Part shown: piece by piece, positions 4,342 to 35,171 of the stretch
Numbering within the stretch: the stretch's first letter is position 1
Layout: each line of letters opens with the position of its first letter
Virus record (IMG/VR): IMGVR_UViG_3300047510_001154
Span: 1 to 39,874 of that record
Strand: one strand, 5' to 3'
Length of the DNA: 39,874 bases
From: a virus
Notes under the pieces: model-generated
What the model was told of the DNA's origin: nothing
The model's database searches: none
What the model saw: only the letters and a program-made list of their open reading frames with translations
Program-made: the position numbers and the translations under genes

Positions 4342-4563
4342 ATGACCCTTTCAGAAAAGTTCAAGAAGCACATGGCAATCTTGCGGGATACCGTAGATGG
4401 TCGTTATGTTCTAGACATGCAGAATCCTAAACTTTATAAAAAAGTTTGTAAGTATCTGTCTGAAAATGGACTTGAATTCTCTGGTGATCCTTATGATGAC
4501 TATGAGATGTTCCTTGATCAACTTGCACTTGAACTCAACGTTGAGGAGACTGTCGAACAGTGA
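4342..4563 (+). CDS. Small acidic hypothetical protein, 73 residues
   Basis: Predicted helical and acidic (DPYDDYEMFLDQLALELNVEE). It begins 22 nt after the -10 box at 4314-4319, and no clear Shine-Dalgarno sequence is seen. The next gene starts at a GTG overlapping the stop. Function unknown; being first after a host-type promoter suggests early expression. Confidence 0.55.
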   Translation: MTLSEKFKKHMAILRDTVDGRYVLDMQNPKLYKKVCKYLSENGLEFSGDPYDDYEMFLDQLALELNVEETVEQ

Positions 4564-4802
4564 AAACTCAAGTCTTTCATGAGCGTTTTCCCTACCGTTA
4601 TGTTACTGTAGGGACACTTGAGATTAACGGTAAACCCGATTACCGCATTCAAAAGTTCAATGAGTGGACAAAGCGATATTGTGACATGTATCTGTGTGAC
4701 AATGGTATGCAATTTGAGACGGCTATGGAAGACTTTGAGTACACTAAATGGTTAGATCCTGATTGTGTACCTTGTTACATTAAAGATGATGAAAGTTATT
4801 GA
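4560..4802 (+). CDS. Small hypothetical protein, 80 residues
   Basis: The GTG start overlaps the preceding TGA by four bases (GTGA coupling). Aromatic-rich, with four Cys (YCDMYLCDNG, DCVPCYI) that could bind a metal or form pairs, though not in a standard zinc-finger spacing. Family unknown. Confidence 0.5.
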   Translation: MKTQVFHERFPYRYVTVGTLEINGKPDYRIQKFNEWTKRYCDMYLCDNGMQFETAMEDFEYTKWLDPDCVPCYIKDDESY

Positions 4803-5307
4803 TAATTTTCTTTCAAAACCTGACTTTGAAAAAATACAAAGTCAGATGTTGAGTAATTCTTTCCCTTGGTTTTATAATGAAAACGTTTCTGAACCAAGGG
4901 AAAGAACCTCAATAGAGAAAGAAATGTTTCAGTTCTTTCATCCTTTTTATTATTACTGGGAGTGGTGTTCTAACTATAAATCATTAGTAATGCCAGTTCT
5001 TGAACAGTTAAATGTTTTAACTCCTTTAAGGATTAAAGCCAATCTAACGTTTAAGATGAGTGATAACTACGAAACAGGTTATCATTATGATTATTCTGAT
5101 GGATGTATACCAAAATTTAATATTGCTCTTTTATATTTGACCACTACTAATGGGCCAACTAAATTTGAGAATGGAGATGTGTGTGATTGTGTAGAGAATA
5201 GATTAGTTTTATTTGATAATACAATCAAGCACACTGGAGTTATGGCAACAGATTCAAAACGAAGAGTTGTAATTAACTTCAATTACATAGACACGGATGG
5301 TCTATAA
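4789..5307 (+). CDS. 2OG-Fe(II) oxygenase superfamily protein
   Basis: 172 residues from MKVIDNFL; ATG 4786 would add one Met. YHYDYSDG supplies the H-x-D pair, IKHTGV the distal His and KRRVVINFNY the 2-oxoglutarate-binding Arg. The MKVIDNFLSKPDFEKIQ opening is typical of this family. Substrate unknown; a role in modifying virion or host proteins is only a guess. The start overlaps the upstream gene by 14 bp. The end of this gene (from 5292) already carries the first copy of the downstream repeat. Confidence 0.7.
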   Translation: MKVIDNFLSKPDFEKIQSQMLSNSFPWFYNENVSEPRERTSIEKEMFQFFHPFYYYWEWCSNYKSLVMPVLEQLNVLTPLRIKANLTFKMSDNYETGYHYDYSDGCIPKFNIALLYLTTTNGPTKFENGDVCDCVENRLVLFDNTIKHTGVMATDSKRRVVINFNYIDTDGL

Positions 5308-5475
5308 CAGTACTGGTGGAGTCATCCTCATTATGCCCGTCACGGATGGACGTTAACAGCACTGGTCGGGATGGGTCTTCAACCCCTCGGAGTTTCCTGC
5401 TTCTCTCAAAAGCAGGTGGTGCGGATGGGGCAACCCCGCCTGGTTTCTTGTTTCCAGTCAAAGAACAAGTGGCGA
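5292..5475 (+). repeat. Degenerate tandem repeat of hairpins; probable structured RNA
   Basis: CACGGATGG occurs at 5292 and 5341, each followed by a similar TAACAG(T/C)ACTGGT stretch. A ~50-nt unit then repeats at about 5369 and 5423: GGATGGG/ACCCC small hairpin, then a GTTTC-led second hairpin ending in GGTGG or AGTGG. The second hairpin is CCTGCTT/AAGCAGG (5396-5402 with 5410-5416) in copy one and CTTGTTT/GAACAAG (5447-5453 with 5463-5469) in copy two. Two of the base pairs differ by paired C-G to T-A changes. Most of this lies in the ~250-bp gap 5308-5558, where I see no convincing gene. Confidence 0.65.
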
Positions 5476-5497
5476 GCCTGCAACTTCAGAACTACGA

Positions 5498-5531
5498 GGC
5501 GGTTGACAACAACCGCCTTTTTTGGTATTAT
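5498..5531 (+). promoter_or_regulatory. Interlocked terminator and promoter upstream of the glycan operon
   Basis: The hairpin GGCGGTTG/CAACCGCC (5498-5505 with 5510-5517, loop ACAA) followed by six T is an intrinsic terminator. The -35 box TTGACA (5503-5508) spans the end of its left arm and the loop. TATTAT at 5526-5531 follows after exactly 17 bp. The glycan operon starts at 5559. Confidence 0.8.
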
Positions 5532-5558
5532 ACATAAGAAGAAACCATTTATTATTAG

Positions 5559-6617
5559 ATGACTGCTTACACTAAAAAGGCACTGGTTCTGGGTGCTGGT
5601 GGATTTATTGGGTCACACATGGTCAAGCGACTGCGATCTGAAGGGTACTGGGTGCGTGGTGTAGATCTTAAGTATCCTGAATTTTCTAAACACGAAGCAA
5701 ACGAATTTGTTCTTGGCGATCTTCGTGATGTAGATTTTGTTCGACGTGTCCTTGAATATAAAGGAGATCGTGGTAATTTTTATCACTCCGTTCCTTATCG
5801 TTACATTCAGCCTTTCGATGAGATCTATCAGTTTGCTGCTGACATGGGTGGAGCAGGTTTCGTCTTTAGTGGCGAAAACGATGCTGATATCATGCACAAC
5901 TCTGCTACTATTAATCTGAACGTTCTTGAAGAGCAACGTAAGATGAATGAGCGAGTTGGAAAGAACTCTACTAAGATCTTTTACTCTGGTTCTGCTTGCA
6001 TGTATCCTGAGCATAACCAACTTGATCCTGACAATCCTAACTGCCGTGAAGAATCTGCATACCCCGCTAATCCTGATAGCGAATATGGATGGGAAAAACT
6101 CTTCTCCGAGAGACTTTATTTTGCCTATAATCGTAATTATGGCATCCCTGTCCGCGTTGCTAGGTATCACAATATCTTTGGCCCTGAAGGCACCTGGGAC
6201 GGTGGAAGAGAAAAAGCTCCTGCAGCAATCTGCCGAAAGGTTGCCTACCTCCCTCAGACAGGTGGATCCATCGAGGTGTGGGGAGACGGCTTACAAACTC
6301 GTTCCTTCCTGTTCATTGATGAATGCATCGAAGCAACGCGGCGAATGATGGATAGTGACTTCATGGGCCCTGTGAATATTGGTTCTGAAGAGATGGTGAC
6401 TATCAATCAACTGGTAGAGACTGCCGCCAAGGTGTCTGGTAAAGTTGTTCAGAAGAACTACAAACTCGATGCTCCTCTTGGTGTTCGCGGCCGCAACTCC
6501 AACAATGATCTCATCCGTGAGAAACTTGGTTGGGACTACTCTCAGACTCTGGAAGAGGGTATTCGCAAGACTTATGCATGGATTAGTGAGCAGATCAATG
6601 CAAAAACTGAGGCTTAA
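5559..6617 (+). CDS. GDP-mannose 3,5-epimerase-like NAD-dependent epimerase
   Basis: 352 residues, extended SDR fold. GAGGFIGSH (12-20) is the NAD-binding loop. SACMYPE with C147, YGWEK (Y176, K180), HNIFGPEGTW and GGREKAPAA with K219 match the plant GDP-mannose 3,5-epimerase signature, including the second catalytic Cys/Lys pair. GDGLQTRSF and GVRGRNSNN also match. It would make GDP-L-galactose or GDP-L-gulose from GDP-D-mannose. Relative to the plant enzyme there seems to be a ~25-residue insertion near residues 60-85. First gene of a 16-gene overlapping operon. Substrate is inferred from family. Confidence 0.82.
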   Translation: MTAYTKKALVLGAGGFIGSHMVKRLRSEGYWVRGVDLKYPEFSKHEANEFVLGDLRDVDFVRRVLEYKGDRGNFYHSVPYRYIQPFDEIYQFAADMGGAGFVFSGENDADIMHNSATINLNVLEEQRKMNERVGKNSTKIFYSGSACMYPEHNQLDPDNPNCREESAYPANPDSEYGWEKLFSERLYFAYNRNYGIPVRVARYHNIFGPEGTWDGGREKAPAAICRKVAYLPQTGGSIEVWGDGLQTRSFLFIDECIEATRRMMDSDFMGPVNIGSEEMVTINQLVETAAKVSGKVVQKNYKLDAPLGVRGRNSNNDLIREKLGWDYSQTLEEGIRKTYAWISEQINAKTEA

Positions 6618-23719: not shown

Positions 23720-23882
23720 GGTAAACAAATGTTACGAACCTTAAAGAGTTTGTAATAATGTTAAACACCCGTTAACCGAGACCTATGGGTGTATAAATTA
23801 CGTCTCTCATATCCCGCCTGAGGGTGGCGGGAGCATAGTATCACCACCATTTCCCTGATGGTCTTACTACTTGTACATTTCA
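23720..23882 (+). promoter_or_regulatory. Structured psbA 5' leader
   Basis: Three hairpins: ACACCC/GGGTGT (23765-23770 with 23787-23792), CCCGCC/GGCGGG (23813-23818 with 23826-23831), ACCAT/ATGGT (23846-23850 with 23858-23862). Two very short reading frames, 8 codons at 23729 and 5 codons at 23758, lie upstream of the first. psbA itself lacks a clear Shine-Dalgarno site, so translation may depend on this leader. Confidence 0.5.
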
Positions 23883-24968
23883 ATGGCTCAATCTACTCTT
23901 TCACGTCAACAATCACAATCGAATATTTGGGAACAGTTCTGCAACTGGGTAACTTCTACCGATAACCGTCTCTATGTTGGTTGGTTCGGGGTTCTGATGA
24001 TTCCTTGCTTGCTTGCTGCAACCACTTGTTTCTTGGTTGCTTTCATCGCTGCTCCTCCTGTGGACATCGATGGTATCCGTGAACCCGTTGCTGGTTCACT
24101 CATGTACGGAAACAACATCATCTCTGGTGCTGTGATTCCTTCGTCCAATGCAATTGGACTGCACTTTTATCCCATCTGGGAAGCTGCTTCCCTAGATGAG
24201 TGGCTTTACAACGGTGGCCCTTTCCAACTGGTCGTCTTCCATTTCCTGATTGGTATCTATGCTTACATGGGTCGCGAGTGGGAACTCTCCTACCGTCTGG
24301 GTATGCGTCCTTGGATTTGTGTTGCTTACTCTGCTCCTGTTGCCGCTGCTTCTGCAGTTTTCCTTGTCTATCCTTTCGGTCAAGGTTCCTTCAGTGATGC
24401 AATGCCTCTCGGAATCTCGGGCACGTTCAACTACATGCTCGTCTTCCAAGCAGAACACAACATTCTCATGCATCCTTTCCATATGCTCGGCGTGGCTGGG
24501 GTATTTGGTGGCAGCCTCTTTAGTGCTATGCACGGAAGTCTGGTTACGTCTTCTTTGGTTCGTGAAACTACTGAAAACGAATCCCAGAACTACGGTTACA
24601 AGTTCGGACAAGAAGAAGAAACCTACAACATTGTAGCCGCTCACGGTTACTTTGGTCGTCTGATCTTCCAATACGCTTCGTTCAACAACTCTCGTTCGCT
24701 GCACTTCTTCCTTGCTGCATGGCCTGTAGTTGGTATCTGGTTCACTGCTCTTGGTGTTAGCACTATGGCATTCAACCTCAACGGTTTCAACTTCAACCAG
24801 TCCATCATCGACTCTCAGGGTCGTGTGCTCAACACCTGGGCAGATGTTCTGAACCGTGCTGGTCTCGGAATGGAGGTAATGCACGAGCGCAACGCTCACA
24901 ACTTCCCTCTTGACCTTGCTACTGCTGAGTCCACCCCCGTGGCACTCACCGCACCTGCTATCGGTTGA
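23883..24968 (+). CDS. psbA: Photosystem II D1 reaction-centre protein
   Basis: 361 residues from ATG 23883. Nearly every D1 hallmark is intact: [73 protein letters not shown], and a C-terminal HNFPLDLA followed by a 15-residue extension of the kind removed by CtpA. The residue equivalent to cyanobacterial position 130 is Glu ([10 protein letters not shown]), the form linked with high-light D1:2. No intron interrupts it, unlike psbA of phage S-PM2. It replaces turned-over D1 during infection. Confidence 0.98.
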
Positions 24969-31703: not shown

Positions 31704-34700
31704 ATGGCTGAATTTCGTTTAGGGCGTTTAAAATTTAATTGGACAGGGAACTGGACTCCCTCGACGGCGTATGTCATCGACGACATTATGCGCTTTGGTC
31801 CTAACAACTATGTTTGTATTACCAATCACACCTCTACGGGTATTGGTACTACTGCATGGGCATCGACCGACTCTGCCTATTGGCAACTTCATGTAGAGGG
31901 TTTTACCTTTAAGGGAGCCTTTAGTACTGTCACAAACTATGTTGTCAATGATATTGTAAAACTTGGCGGTAATCAGTATATCTGTACCTCCAACCATGTA
32001 TCCGTTGCTGACACATCTAACTGGGCGTCTCAGAACCAAGCACAGTATTGGTCAACCTATAACGAAAATGTCACTCCTGTTGATGAGTGGACAGTAAATA
32101 CTTATTATAATGTAAACCAATTAGTTAGCATTGGAGGCAACGTTTATCGTTGTAACCAAGCTCATGCTGGTGCTGCAACAACTACAGCGTGGTATTCTAC
32201 TGATTTATCAAAGTGGACAAGATTTGTTCCCGGCATTGATCATGTTGGTGCTTATACTACGTCAGTACAGTATGGCCCCAATGATGTAATTAAAATCGGG
32301 CCTAAGCAGTATAGAGTTGTAACTCCATTTAATGCTAGTGGATCTCTGACTGGTGAGTACTCAAATCTCTCTGTTCTCACGGATGGTGTCGAAAGTCGTG
32401 GAGGATGGATTGCTACTGGGATTTATTATCCTGGCGATTTAGTTGAGTTTAATGGTAATGCTTATGTTGCAATCGCCCAAAACGATAATAAGCAACCAAA
32501 TCTTAATACTAGCGATAGTTTCTGGAATGTTCTTGCTGTAGGTCTCGGAACTACGGCTGCAGTAGGAACTTACAGCAGCACGACTGTTTATAATCAGTCT
32601 GATCTAGTTACCCTTGGTGGTAATACTTACCGAGTTATTTCTCCTCAGGTTAGTGGTATTAATCCAATTGGAGTTGGTAGCGCACAAAACTGGCAACTCG
32701 TAGTTAAGGGTCTTAACTTCGCTGGAACTTGGGCAACTGCAACCACATATGAACTCAACGACATTGTTGAGTATGCATCGTCTGCTTATGTTTCGGTAGC
32801 GTCCTCTAACATGAGTACGATTCCTGGAACTGATGCTTCGAAGTGGGCTGCATTTGCTATTGGTGATAGCACTGCTCTTCTTACAACCAGAGGTGATCTT
32901 CTTTATAGAAATGCCTCTGCTCCTGCAAGACTGGGTATTGGATCTCTTGGTACTGTTCTTACATCTGACGGAACCGACGTATTCTGGGATTATTCTGGTG
33001 TTCAAACCAAGGTTCTGTATGTAGATTCTATTTCGGGCAGTGATGCTGAAACTGGTACATCTGCTGCTACTGCATTTAAAACTCTTGGAGTTGCTCTGAC
33101 TAGTGCCACTGGCCCTCAGGGAATTACGAATATTGTTCACACCGGAGCAACAGGTTTTGCTACCATCACTGTTCCTAATCACGGAATTCTTTTCAATGGA
33201 TCGAGAGTCAGACTTGATAATGTTGCATTCTCTACCGCAACGTTAGTTAACCAAGTTGGATTCTCCAGCAATATTTTCCCTGCAGTTAATGGTCAACAAC
33301 TTGGCGGAAGAAGTGGCCAAGGTGGTGGTGGATCTTTCTTTGATGTTATTAGTATTGTTGGCGTCAATACTATTGTTGTTAATATTGGTACTGCTGTTAC
33401 CGACCTTGCATATGTTCAGGGTGGAACTGTTACTGATGTATCTCCTGTTATTTTCAAACTGTCTGCTGGAGACTTCTTCGAGCAACTTCCTATTAGATTG
33501 AATCCCAACGTATCTGTTGTTGGTGATTCTCTGAGAGGAACCACTATTCTTCCTGCGGCTGGACTCTCGACTGACGGTGTTACTCCTAACAGCCGTAAGC
33601 AAATGTTCCAATTGTCTGACGGATGTGTTCTTCAAGGACTTTCTCTGAAGGGCATGACTGGATTTACCTATAATACAAATGCTCCTTTTGATATTGGACA
33701 AACAAACATTCGTGTTGGAACTGGAACCACCGCATGTGGTATCTTCTGTGCTCTGAATCCCGATTCTCCTATTCTGAGAAAGTCTCCTTATCTTAAGGAT
33801 TGTACCACTTTTTCTCATGGTGGTGTAGGTGTGTTCATTGATGGTGGTATTCATACCACTGGAAACAAGTCGATGGTATTCGACTCCTTTACTATGATCA
33901 ACAGTGATGGTGCAGGATACATTCTTGATAAGGATGCTCGTGCTGAGATCGTTTCCTGCTTCACCTACTACTGCTCTTGGGGATACTTTGCTGGTGAAGG
34001 TGCAAGAGTTCGTTCGGTTGGTGGTAACAACTCCTACGGTGATTACGGTGTAATTGCTTCTGGATTCTCCACTTCCGAAACTCCAAGAACCGCTGCTGTT
34101 TATGGCGATAGACTTGAGACAATCACTGGTACTGTGGTTAACGGCCCTCTGGCTGTTGGTCTTGCAATGACTGGTGCCACCTCTGGTGCTCGCGCCACAC
34201 TGATCAACGATCAAACTGCTGGTGATTATATCATCTTCAAGTATAACGCTGGATATGGTGATCCTTCCATCGGTATCGGAACCACATCTTTTATTCCTGG
34301 CGAAACAATTAACATCGCTGGTGGTAGAAGTGTTGGTGTTGTCTCCGCTACTGGATCTGTTGGTGGACAAAAAGGTGTTCTGATTGAAGTTTCTGGACTC
34401 TCCACAACTCCTAGAGTTGGAGATAACGTGGCCTTCACCACAACTACAGTTCAGTCTGGTGTCAGCACTGATAATAACTACTACATTATTGCTGCTGTTA
34501 CTGGATTTACAACAGCAACTGGACGTGCTACACTGAGTATTGCTCCTGAGAAGACACTCAGAACAATTGATGACGGAACTAGCACTTCTCTCATTCAAAT
34601 GAGAACCAACTTCTCGCAGATGCGTCTCACAGGACACGACTTCTTGAGTGTTGGTACTGGTAACTCTGTTACAACTAATTATCCAAACGTTAATGAGGAT

Positions 34701-35171
34701 ACAGTTCAGCAGGGTAATGAGACAAATGTAAGACTTGGTGGTAAAGTGTTCTTCGTATCCACTGACCAAGGTGGTAACTTCCGAGTTGGTGACTTCTTCT
34801 CGGTTGACCAGTTGACTGGTAGAGCAACCCTGGACGCTTCCGCGTTCAACCTGTCTGGTCTGACTGAACTGAGACTGGGTGCTATCGGTGGTCAGATTGG
34901 TGAATCGATTAACGAATTCTCCTCTGACGGAACTCTGTCTGGTAACTCTAACCAGGCTGTACCTACCGAGCAAGCAGTTAAGACCTACGTCGATACTCTC
35001 GCTGCCGGACTTAACTCCACTCTGGTTGCTAGATCTGGAAGCACAATGACTGGATCCTTGACTCTCTATGCTGATCCCGGCCCTGGATATGGTGCTAGCA
35101 TGTATGCTGCAACACGTCACTACGTTGACGATCAAGTCGGCCCCTCTCAGTATTTCTCTGGATCTATTTGA
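31704..35171 (+). CDS. Giant tail-fibre-like protein with carbohydrate-binding-like repeats
   Basis: 1155 residues. Residues ~12-400 hold about seven repeats of the CBM5/12-like type (WTPSTAYVIDDIMRFGPNNY, FSTVTNYVVNDIVKLGGNQY, YNQSDLVTLGGNTYRV, TATTYELNDIVEYASSAYVS). Residues ~430-800 look like a beta-helix (VSVVGDSLRGTTILP, FVQ-like segments). DQGGNFRVGDFFSVDQLTGR near residue 1020 mirrors the first fibre. The end SMYAATRHYVDDQV is typical of fibre tips. Probably attaches to chitin-like or LPS glycans on the host. GGAG precedes the start. Confidence 0.78.
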   Translation: MAEFRLGRLKFNWTGNWTPSTAYVIDDIMRFGPNNYVCITNHTSTGIGTTAWASTDSAYWQLHVEGFTFKGAFSTVTNYVVNDIVKLGGNQYICTSNHVSVADTSNWASQNQAQYWSTYNENVTPVDEWTVNTYYNVNQLVSIGGNVYRCNQAHAGAATTTAWYSTDLSKWTRFVPGIDHVGAYTTSVQYGPNDVIKIGPKQYRVVTPFNASGSLTGEYSNLSVLTDGVESRGGWIATGIYYPGDLVEFNGNAYVAIAQNDNKQPNLNTSDSFWNVLAVGLGTTAAVGTYSSTTVYNQSDLVTLGGNTYRVISPQVSGINPIGVGSAQNWQLVVKGLNFAGTWATATTYELNDIVEYASSAYVSVASSNMSTIPGTDASKWAAFAIGDSTALLTTRGDLLYRNASAPARLGIGSLGTVLTSDGTDVFWDYSGVQTKVLYVDSISGSDAETGTSAATAFKTLGVALTSATGPQGITNIVHTGATGFATITVPNHGILFNGSRVRLDNVAFSTATLVNQVGFSSNIFPAVNGQQLGGRSGQGGGGSFFDVISIVGVNTIVVNIGTAVTDLAYVQGGTVTDVSPVIFKLSAGDFFEQLPIRLNPNVSVVGDSLRGTTILPAAGLSTDGVTPNSRKQMFQLSDGCVLQGLSLKGMTGFTYNTNAPFDIGQTNIRVGTGTTACGIFCALNPDSPILRKSPYLKDCTTFSHGGVGVFIDGGIHTTGNKSMVFDSFTMINSDGAGYILDKDARAEIVSCFTYYCSWGYFAGEGARVRSVGGNNSYGDYGVIASGFSTSETPRTAAVYGDRLETITGTVVNGPLAVGLAMTGATSGARATLINDQTAGDYIIFKYNAGYGDPSIGIGTTSFIPGETINIAGGRSVGVVSATGSVGGQKGVLIEVSGLSTTPRVGDNVAFTTTTVQSGVSTDNNYYIIAAVTGFTTATGRATLSIAPEKTLRTIDDGTSTSLIQMRTNFSQMRLTGHDFLSVGTGNSVTTNYPNVNEDTVQQGNETNVRLGGKVFFVSTDQGGNFRVGDFFSVDQLTGRATLDASAFNLSGLTELRLGAIGGQIGESINEFSSDGTLSGNSNQAVPTEQAVKTYVDTLAAGLNSTLVARSGSTMTGSLTLYADPGPGYGASMYAATRHYVDDQVGPSQYFSGSI

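Follow-up and report, generated by a model that had tools for sequence, protein, structure and literature searches.

A predicted array of tandem pseudoknots ending in the wcaG RNA lies between a stop codon and a terminator in a virus of marine cyanobacteria

In a virus of marine cyanobacteria, the wcaG RNA forms the 3′ portion of a longer array, at approximately positions 5287-5483 of the DNA analyzed here, in which four units of about 50 nt follow one another and the last two make up wcaG. Covariation among viral homologues shows that the predicted fold of this array, a series of tandem pseudoknots, is maintained. On comparative grounds, the array would most likely be a structured 3′ end at a boundary between gene cassettes, rather than a 5′-UTR switch of the glycan operon that follows it. 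The wcaG part was known already, as a described family. What appears to be new relative to Rfam is the extension into a modular array, the covariation of pseudoknots in both unit types, and the context of stop codon and terminator with promoter.

Weinberg et al. 2010 (PMC2864571) described the wcaG RNA from marine sequences and cyanophages, considered it probably cis-regulatory and a candidate riboswitch, and reported it from potential 5′ UTRs of exopolysaccharide or high-light genes. Later cyanophage papers annotate wcaG and go no further. Our literature searches for an experimental test or a ligand of wcaG, as well as for a wcaG pseudoknot or pseudoknot arrays in cyanophages, returned only the 2010 description and annotation mentions.

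Results

Family identity and distribution

The window, i.e., the whole stretch of DNA that was analyzed, is an IMG/VR virus record of 39,874 bases. Using cmscan, we found a match to the wcaG RNA (RF01761) at 5388-5483 on the + strand (102.5 bits, E 9e-19, cut-off 42), which is full length and covers model positions 1-98. The window also contains a PhotoRC-II RNA, five tRNAs and a talC-type transaldolase, a combination that fits a T4-like cyanophage. The PhotoRC-II RNA (RF01717, 83.3 bits) is located at 23753-23846 (+), just 5′ of a 365-aa ORF at 23871-24968 that is a psbA candidate by position. Elsewhere in the window, a 630-aa ORF at 33243-35135 (-) lies antisense within a 1155-aa ORF at 31704-35171, probably as an effect of base composition.

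We found wcaG in 69 phage records, all of them cyanophages, with one locus in each phage record tested, sometimes accompanied by a weak adjacent second match. The positive control of the covariance search was recovered in 12 of 12 phage records, and the covariance-model search with stricter filters gave a match in 0 of 386 genomes of the cyanobacterial phylum. A loose-pattern search of GTDB genome contigs yielded 119 matches, which on inspection were only chance GC-rich ones. A motif search of positions 1-99900 of phage S-H35 identified no second array.

Layout of the array

Each unit follows the same plan, in which a small H-type pseudoknot is succeeded by UGGU or UGGC and then by a hairpin or tail. 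The units start at 5289, 5338, 5389 and 5440, i.e., at spacings of 49, 51 and 51 nt. In units 1 and 2, the opening element is a small hairpin whose loop has 7 nt (AGAC-ACGGAUG-GUCU and CGUC-ACGGAUG-GACG, respectively), followed by an A-rich tail and CUGGU; between them, two P1 pairs are changed on both sides, one from A-U to C-G and the other from A-U to U-A. Unit 3 opens with GAG-UUU-CCUGCUU-CUC-..AA-AAGCAGG-UGGU, and unit 4 with CUGG-UUU-CUUGUUU-CCAG-UCAAA-GAACAAG-UGGC. Hairpins with a GGAU internal loop lie between the pseudoknot elements, at 5367-5389 and 5421-5439. The first ~100 nt of the array have no Rfam match. The features of the region, in window positions, are as follows.

4765..5307 (+): upstream ORF of 180 aa without a Pfam hit; unit 1 supplies the final codons (..I-D-T-D-G-L-stop)
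5287..5316 (+): unit 1, predicted pseudoknot-type element of class II (class II loop-tail covariation, 71/73)
5289-5292 / 5300-5303 (+): unit 1, P1 AGAC/GUCU, extendable to 5287
5293-5299 (+): unit 1, 7-nt loop ACGGAUG
5304-5312 (+): unit 1, A-rich tail; loop C5294 pairs with G5310
5313-5316 (+): unit 1, CUGG
5317..5337 (+): unit 1, putative linker or hairpin of G type (GGAGUCAU...AUGCCC); the pattern CTGGTGGAGTCA..TGACCC recurs in at least 120 viral stretches
5338..5365 (+): unit 2, predicted pseudoknot-type element of class II (class II covariation)
5338-5341 / 5349-5352 (+): unit 2, P1 CGUC/GACG
5342-5348 (+): unit 2, loop ACGGAUG
5353-5361 (+): unit 2, tail; loop C5343 pairs with G5359
5362-5365 (+): unit 2, CUGG
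5366..5389 (+): unit 2, hairpin D, CG [GGAU] GGGU-CUUCA-ACCC [CU] CG
5388..5483 (+): wcaG RNA, RF01761 (102.5 bits, E 9e-19)
5389..5416 (+): unit 3, H-type pseudoknot H1 (pseudoknot scan and covariation)
5389-5392 / 5403-5406 (+): H1, first helix, GGAG (at least GAG) / CUCU
5393-5395 (+): H1, UUU loop
5396-5402 / 5410-5416 (+): H1, second helix, CCUGCUU/AAGCAGG
5417..5439 (+): unit 3, UGGU linker and hairpin C, GC [GGAU] GGGG-CAA-CCCC GC
5440..5469 (+): unit 4, H-type pseudoknot H2 (pseudoknot scan and covariation)
5440-5443 / 5454-5457 (+): H2, first helix, CUGG/CCAG, with a UUU loop after CUGG
5447-5453 / 5463-5469 (+): H2, second helix, CUUGUUU/GAACAAG
5458-5462 (+): H2, A-rich loop
5470..5483 (+): end tag of the array, UGGCGAGCCUGCAA (in homologues, UGGCG[A/U]GC[C/A]UG)
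5496..5523 (+): intrinsic terminator, GAGGCGGUUG-ACAA-CAACCGCCUU, then a T run
5503..5531 (+): sigma-70-type promoter, TTGACA-17-TATTAT, nested in the terminator
5559..6617 (+): first glycan-operon gene, a member of the NAD-dependent epimerase / GDP-mannose dehydratase family (PF01370, 5.9e-36; PF16363, 1.3e-25)

The initial annotation of this region had described two ~50-nt copies, each with a GGG/CCC hairpin and a second hairpin of 7 bp, preceded by a further repeat of 30 nt. We locate the copies at about 5367-5417 and 5418-5470, and their GGG/CCC hairpins at 5373-5376/5382-5385 (GGGU/ACCC) and 5427-5430/5434-5437 (GGGG/CCCC). The 7-bp helices are likewise present (5396-5402/5410-5416 and 5447-5453/5463-5469); they belong, however, to pseudoknots rather than plain hairpins, because the bases that immediately precede UUU pair with their loops as well (GAG/CUC and CUGG/CCAG, respectively). 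Exactly two C-G pairs of the first copy are U-A pairs in the second, as had been proposed. The preceding repeat does recur, over 26 nt from 5292 and 5341 with 85% identity, but it is not a separate element and forms part of the same four-unit array; that is, the two repeats perceived earlier are units 1 and 2 and units 3 and 4.

A generic pseudoknot scan of both strands of the whole window produced five hits, the top two of which are 5389-5416 and 5440-5469. The folding energy of 5288-5530 is not unusual (z -0.47); this value and those of single units are uninformative, since pseudoknots lie outside the energy model. With the plain folding energy ordinary, the evidence for the fold is comparative, not energetic.

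Covariation of the pseudoknots in the wcaG part

Homologues were collected by sequence pattern. At least 120 IMG/VR viral stretches contain the core pattern, a few of them as chance matches, and the invariance of GTGGTGCGGATGGG in the alignment is a product of the search pattern and not evidence. For the last unit, the four bases after CCGC were taken regardless of pairing and compared with the loop. These bases are the Watson-Crick complement of the loop in 89 of 92 non-redundant loci, compared with 42 on average, and at most 51, for shuffled loops. Six pair combinations account for these loci: CUGG/CCAG (60), CAGG/CCUG (9), CCAG/CUGG (8), CCUG/CAGG (5), CUAG/CUAG (4) and CGAG/CUCG (3). Unit 3 gives a weaker but still clear pseudoknot signal, with three bases complementary in 63 of 92 loci (shuffled mean 26.6, maximum 40).

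When 86 sequences are aligned with MAFFT, pairing is kept in 98.1% of the cells of the combined structure, which strongly supports the earlier proposal of a structured RNA with compensatory changes; its covariation score is 0.548, against 0.230 when shuffled (exceeded in 0 of 500) and at most 0.153 when slid. The nested RF01761 model consists of three hairpins without pseudoknots, and each of its three helices is paired in 98.0-98.2% of cells across 86 loci. The conserved helices include 75 G-U as opposed to 13 A-C cells, which favors the + strand as the RNA, and the T runs of the terminators are on this same strand. The single-stranded bases UUU, AAA, UGGU and GGAU are strongly conserved.

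The region had also been said to code for nothing convincing. No + frame is consistently open, in agreement with that statement; the first ~20 nt are nevertheless coding, because the ORF at 4765-5307 ends at the TAA at 5305-5307, within unit 1. Short ORFs are annotated over the array in some records, and a coding sequence or a spurious repeat was therefore a conceivable reading. Homologous loci, however, preserve the pairing and not a reading frame: the loops of the C hairpins are 5, 6, 7, 8, 9 or 10 nt long and share no common open frame. Together with the strong conservation of pairing, this refutes the coding or spurious-repeat reading, to which we assign a negligible probability.

Covariation and variants of the upstream units

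To the units of the first type we applied an analogous analysis, using 166 distinct elements from 439 loci that were chosen by the stem, the third loop base and the AA of the tail, and not by the contacts tested. Elements whose loop does not start with A were assigned to class I (n=93); class II (n=73) is the class of units 1 and 2 in the window. In class I, a pair between loop base 5 and tail base -4 is present in 92 of 93 elements (A-U 48, G-C 39, U-A 5; shuffled maximum 55), and one between loop base 2 and tail base -3 in 91 of 93 (C-G 60, U-A 31; shuffled maximum 63). In class II, the latter contact is formed in 71 of 73. The 61 ungapped class I sequences are 99.7% paired, with a score of 0.641 compared with 0.222 when shuffled and at most 0.106 when slid.

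Because related sequences can inflate covariation tests, we also carried out a control within arrays. Among 100 pairs of neighboring elements, loop base 2 and tail base -3 both differ in 34, only one differs in 1, and neither differs in 65. Given the loop-tail covariation and these 34 versus 1 within-array differences, the upstream element is predicted to be a miniature H-type pseudoknot, in which two conserved bases, mostly GG, are bulged between the contact pairs. The second helix is longer in some variants, e.g., that with loop GUCGG and tail CCGAC at locus L246.

Array size and content also vary. At four loci (L030, L079, L123 and L124), the array has at least six units and the UGGCGUGCAUG end tag appears in its middle as well, followed by a G/C hairpin; these arrays look as if two complete ones had been joined, and their last unit runs into a tRNA-Leu gene. 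In eight others (L020, L024, L025, L054, L059, L061, L076 and L097), a small ORF separates the wcaG part from a K-G unit upstream of it. Such ORFs inside arrays are ~65-85 aa long and include the families MSKTPYELRFEIF.. and MATKGTAAK..; it looks as though the array had taken up cargo genes.

Placement relative to stop codons, tRNAs and terminators

In 86 of 97 non-redundant loci, the distance from the stop codon of an ORF (50 aa or longer) to the array start is -12 to +27 nt, while 19.6% of random positions in the same contigs lie within ±40 nt of one. Five of the 11 other arrays (L050, L098, L110, L112, L117) start 0-25 nt after a tRNA; overall, tRNA adjacency is near background (15 of 97 metagenomic loci, compared with 11% at random). 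The stop codon is often inside the first unit, in different frames, and a unit-encoded C-terminus, DTDGL, is common to unrelated upstream proteins, including the product of the window's ORF at 4765-5307 (..DTDGL-stop). An 80-aa ORF at 4560-4802 resembles the genes directly before the array in other phages; here, the 180-aa ORF intervenes and ends on the array's own stop codon.

On the downstream side, 77 of 100 loci have a terminator-like hairpin and its T run at a distance of no more than 190 nt, compared with 29 of 300 random pieces, and in about a quarter of the loci there is no terminator and the array is simply intergenic. In a second set, 45 of 71 loci with a terminator have a promoter nested in the hairpin, with TTG 16-18 nt before a TATAAT-like box (TANNNT). 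The same interlocked arrangement of terminator hairpin and early promoter, a PeSL-type feature, is found in the window at 5496-5531. An interlocked promoter had been noted after the segment; it is present, but its location is within the intrinsic-terminator hairpin at 5496-5523. With regard to the potential 5′ UTR, exopolysaccharide or high-light genes are often next, yet the terminator and nested promoter usually lie between, and the array directly adjoins the stop codon upstream.

The flanks are mosaic, with 44 combinations of upstream and downstream families among 78 loci. Relatives of epimerases and GDP-mannose dehydratases make up 39 of 94 downstream proteins, and many others act on sugars; this bias may reflect either the genomic site or a real link. 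In named phages, talC and small conserved genes lie upstream of the array in several cases, and it is frequently followed by a tRNA, hli or tail fiber gene. As the next feature, tRNAs are common (S-H35, S-CAM1, S-RSM4, S-CREM1, S-IOM18 and S-CAM3), as are epimerase genes (S-SM2 and Bellamy). In S-CREM1 (L454, 2215-2650), the manA RNA (RF01745), another proposed 5′-UTR RNA, lies inside the tRNA cluster and fills the gap between tRNA-Leu and tRNA-Asn, starting 2 nt after the one and ending at the first base of the other; an abiF RNA follows.

Comparison with known systems

As a full-length member of RF01761 from a cyanophage, located 5′ of exopolysaccharide-type genes, the RNA at 5388-5483 resembles other wcaG RNAs. 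It differs from the RF01761 model in that it comprises the last two of four units and contains pseudoknots, and from a simple 5′-UTR wcaG in that the array has a stop codon before it and, after it, a terminator in which a promoter is nested. PeSL cassettes of T4-like phages, as cited in PMC4503421 (Arbiol et al. 2010; Comeau et al. 2014), combine a hairpin terminator with an interlocked early (sigma-70) promoter at the junctions between genes that are exchanged. The array shares with these cassettes the terminator with nested sigma-70 promoter and the shuffled flanking genes; insofar as PeSLs are described by that citing paper, the structured RNA array in front is found here only. The STAXI motif (RF01728; Weinberg et al. 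2010, PMC2864571) is also a pseudoknot in tandem, with two or three copies; unlike the window's array, it is enterobacterial, lies near DNA-handling genes and has UUCG tetraloops. STAXI had no match in 5200-5600, even at E up to 10.

In phage T4, the stable RNAs rnaD and rnaC come directly after tRNA-Arg (L459, 909-1248), and the arrays of L050, L112 and L117, directly behind a tRNA, resemble them in position only. As relatives of the array units, rnaC and rnaD were rejected, as no convincing likeness was seen when the sequences were read by eye. REP/BIME arrays are modular repeated structures just after stop codons, in enterobacterial 3′ UTRs. The present array is similar in its modular repeats just after stop codons and between genes; REP/BIME elements, however, are simple hairpins in many genomic copies, whereas the array consists of predicted pseudoknots at one locus per phage.

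Discussion

Our preferred explanation, to which we give a little less than an even chance, is that the array would be the structured 3′ end of transcripts of the upstream (talC-side) operon of a T4-like cyanophage, and thus both a boundary and a 3′-cap. More generally, and just as tentatively, the wcaG RNA could be the terminal part of a phage-specific modular RNA and not a stand-alone 5′-UTR riboswitch. In such an RNA, one to six or more H-type pseudoknot units would be fused to the 3′ ends of genes or tRNAs and capped by a promoter within a terminator, as a boundary for translation, transcription and RNA stability, or a protein-binding scaffold, at a gene-exchange junction. The array would supply stop codons in several frames, so that translation ends; its compact folds would fill the whole 3′ UTR and shield the mRNA 3′ end from 3′-to-5′ decay or, alternatively, hold a protein that does so. 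With the terminator and promoter, it would close one gene cassette and restart transcription for the next, letting unrelated genes be exchanged on either side. Three observations argue against a role at the 3′ end. The downstream bias to sugar-nucleotide enzymes (39 of 94) is not predicted unless the genomic site is itself biased; there is one array per genome, unlike a general mRNA-stabilizing repeat; and about a quarter of the loci have no terminator. In addition, the conserved single-stranded UUU, AAA, UGGU and GGAU suggest a specific binding partner, for which a passive cap would have no need.

That downstream bias, and the invariant single-stranded bases, could be explained if the array were a riboswitch or attenuator of wcaG type, sensing a metabolite or protein on read-through RNA of the upstream operon and gating the terminator before glycan or auxiliary genes. 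Weinberg et al. 2010 (PMC2864571) named the family as a riboswitch candidate, and a terminator does follow the array in 77 of 100 loci. Nonetheless, we regard this explanation as unlikely. In 45 of 71 cases the promoter nested in the terminator would start the downstream gene without the array; the terminator is missing in about a quarter of loci; the next gene in named phages is often a tRNA, hli or tail fiber gene; and it is the upstream stop codon to which the array is fused. Nor did complementarity compared with shuffles give a clear signal of antiterminator pairing between array and terminator: the 3′ arm of the terminator is slightly high (5.99 vs 5.64, above all 15 shuffles), but the 5′ arm has no extra complementarity to the array (7.44 vs 7.37). 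An equally improbable reading, again based on sequence comparison, is that the array is processed from a 3′ UTR, or from behind a tRNA, into a stable RNA that would act in trans, e.g., by binding a host or phage protein; it would then correspond in position to rnaC and rnaD, the small stable RNAs of phage T4. The single array per genome with its variable neighbors and own terminator is consistent with this possibility, as are the five loci that start 0-25 nt after a tRNA, much as T4 rnaD follows tRNA-Arg, and the cluster that the array shares in S-CREM1 with tRNAs and the manA and abiF RNAs. Overall tRNA adjacency, however, is close to background (15/97 vs 11%), and by eye no sequence relation to rnaC or rnaD was seen.

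The mosaic flanks, the fused C-termini, the cargo ORFs between array parts, and the nested terminator and promoter, as in the PeSLs of T4-like phages cited in PMC4503421, could also be accounted for at the level of DNA, if the array were a shared intergenic sequence for PeSL-like cassette exchange with no role as RNA. If only DNA identity counted, however, double compensatory changes would not be expected throughout the array and between neighboring units, and the G-U bias marks one strand as the RNA. As the sole role of the array, a recombination linker is therefore disfavored, and we consider it very improbable; it may be an additional role.

The wcaG RNA has been an orphan riboswitch candidate since 2010, and the placement of the chain casts doubt on the published idea of a switch for the next gene. 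If wcaG is indeed the tail of a chain on the preceding gene, ligand searches would be aimed at the wrong gene, and perhaps at the wrong kind of partner. The array offers clear, testable base pairs in the cultured Synechococcus phages S-H35, Syn1, S-RSM4 and S-CAM1, and could show how cyanophages swap cassettes of glycan, tRNA and photosynthesis genes without upsetting the transcription of their neighbors.
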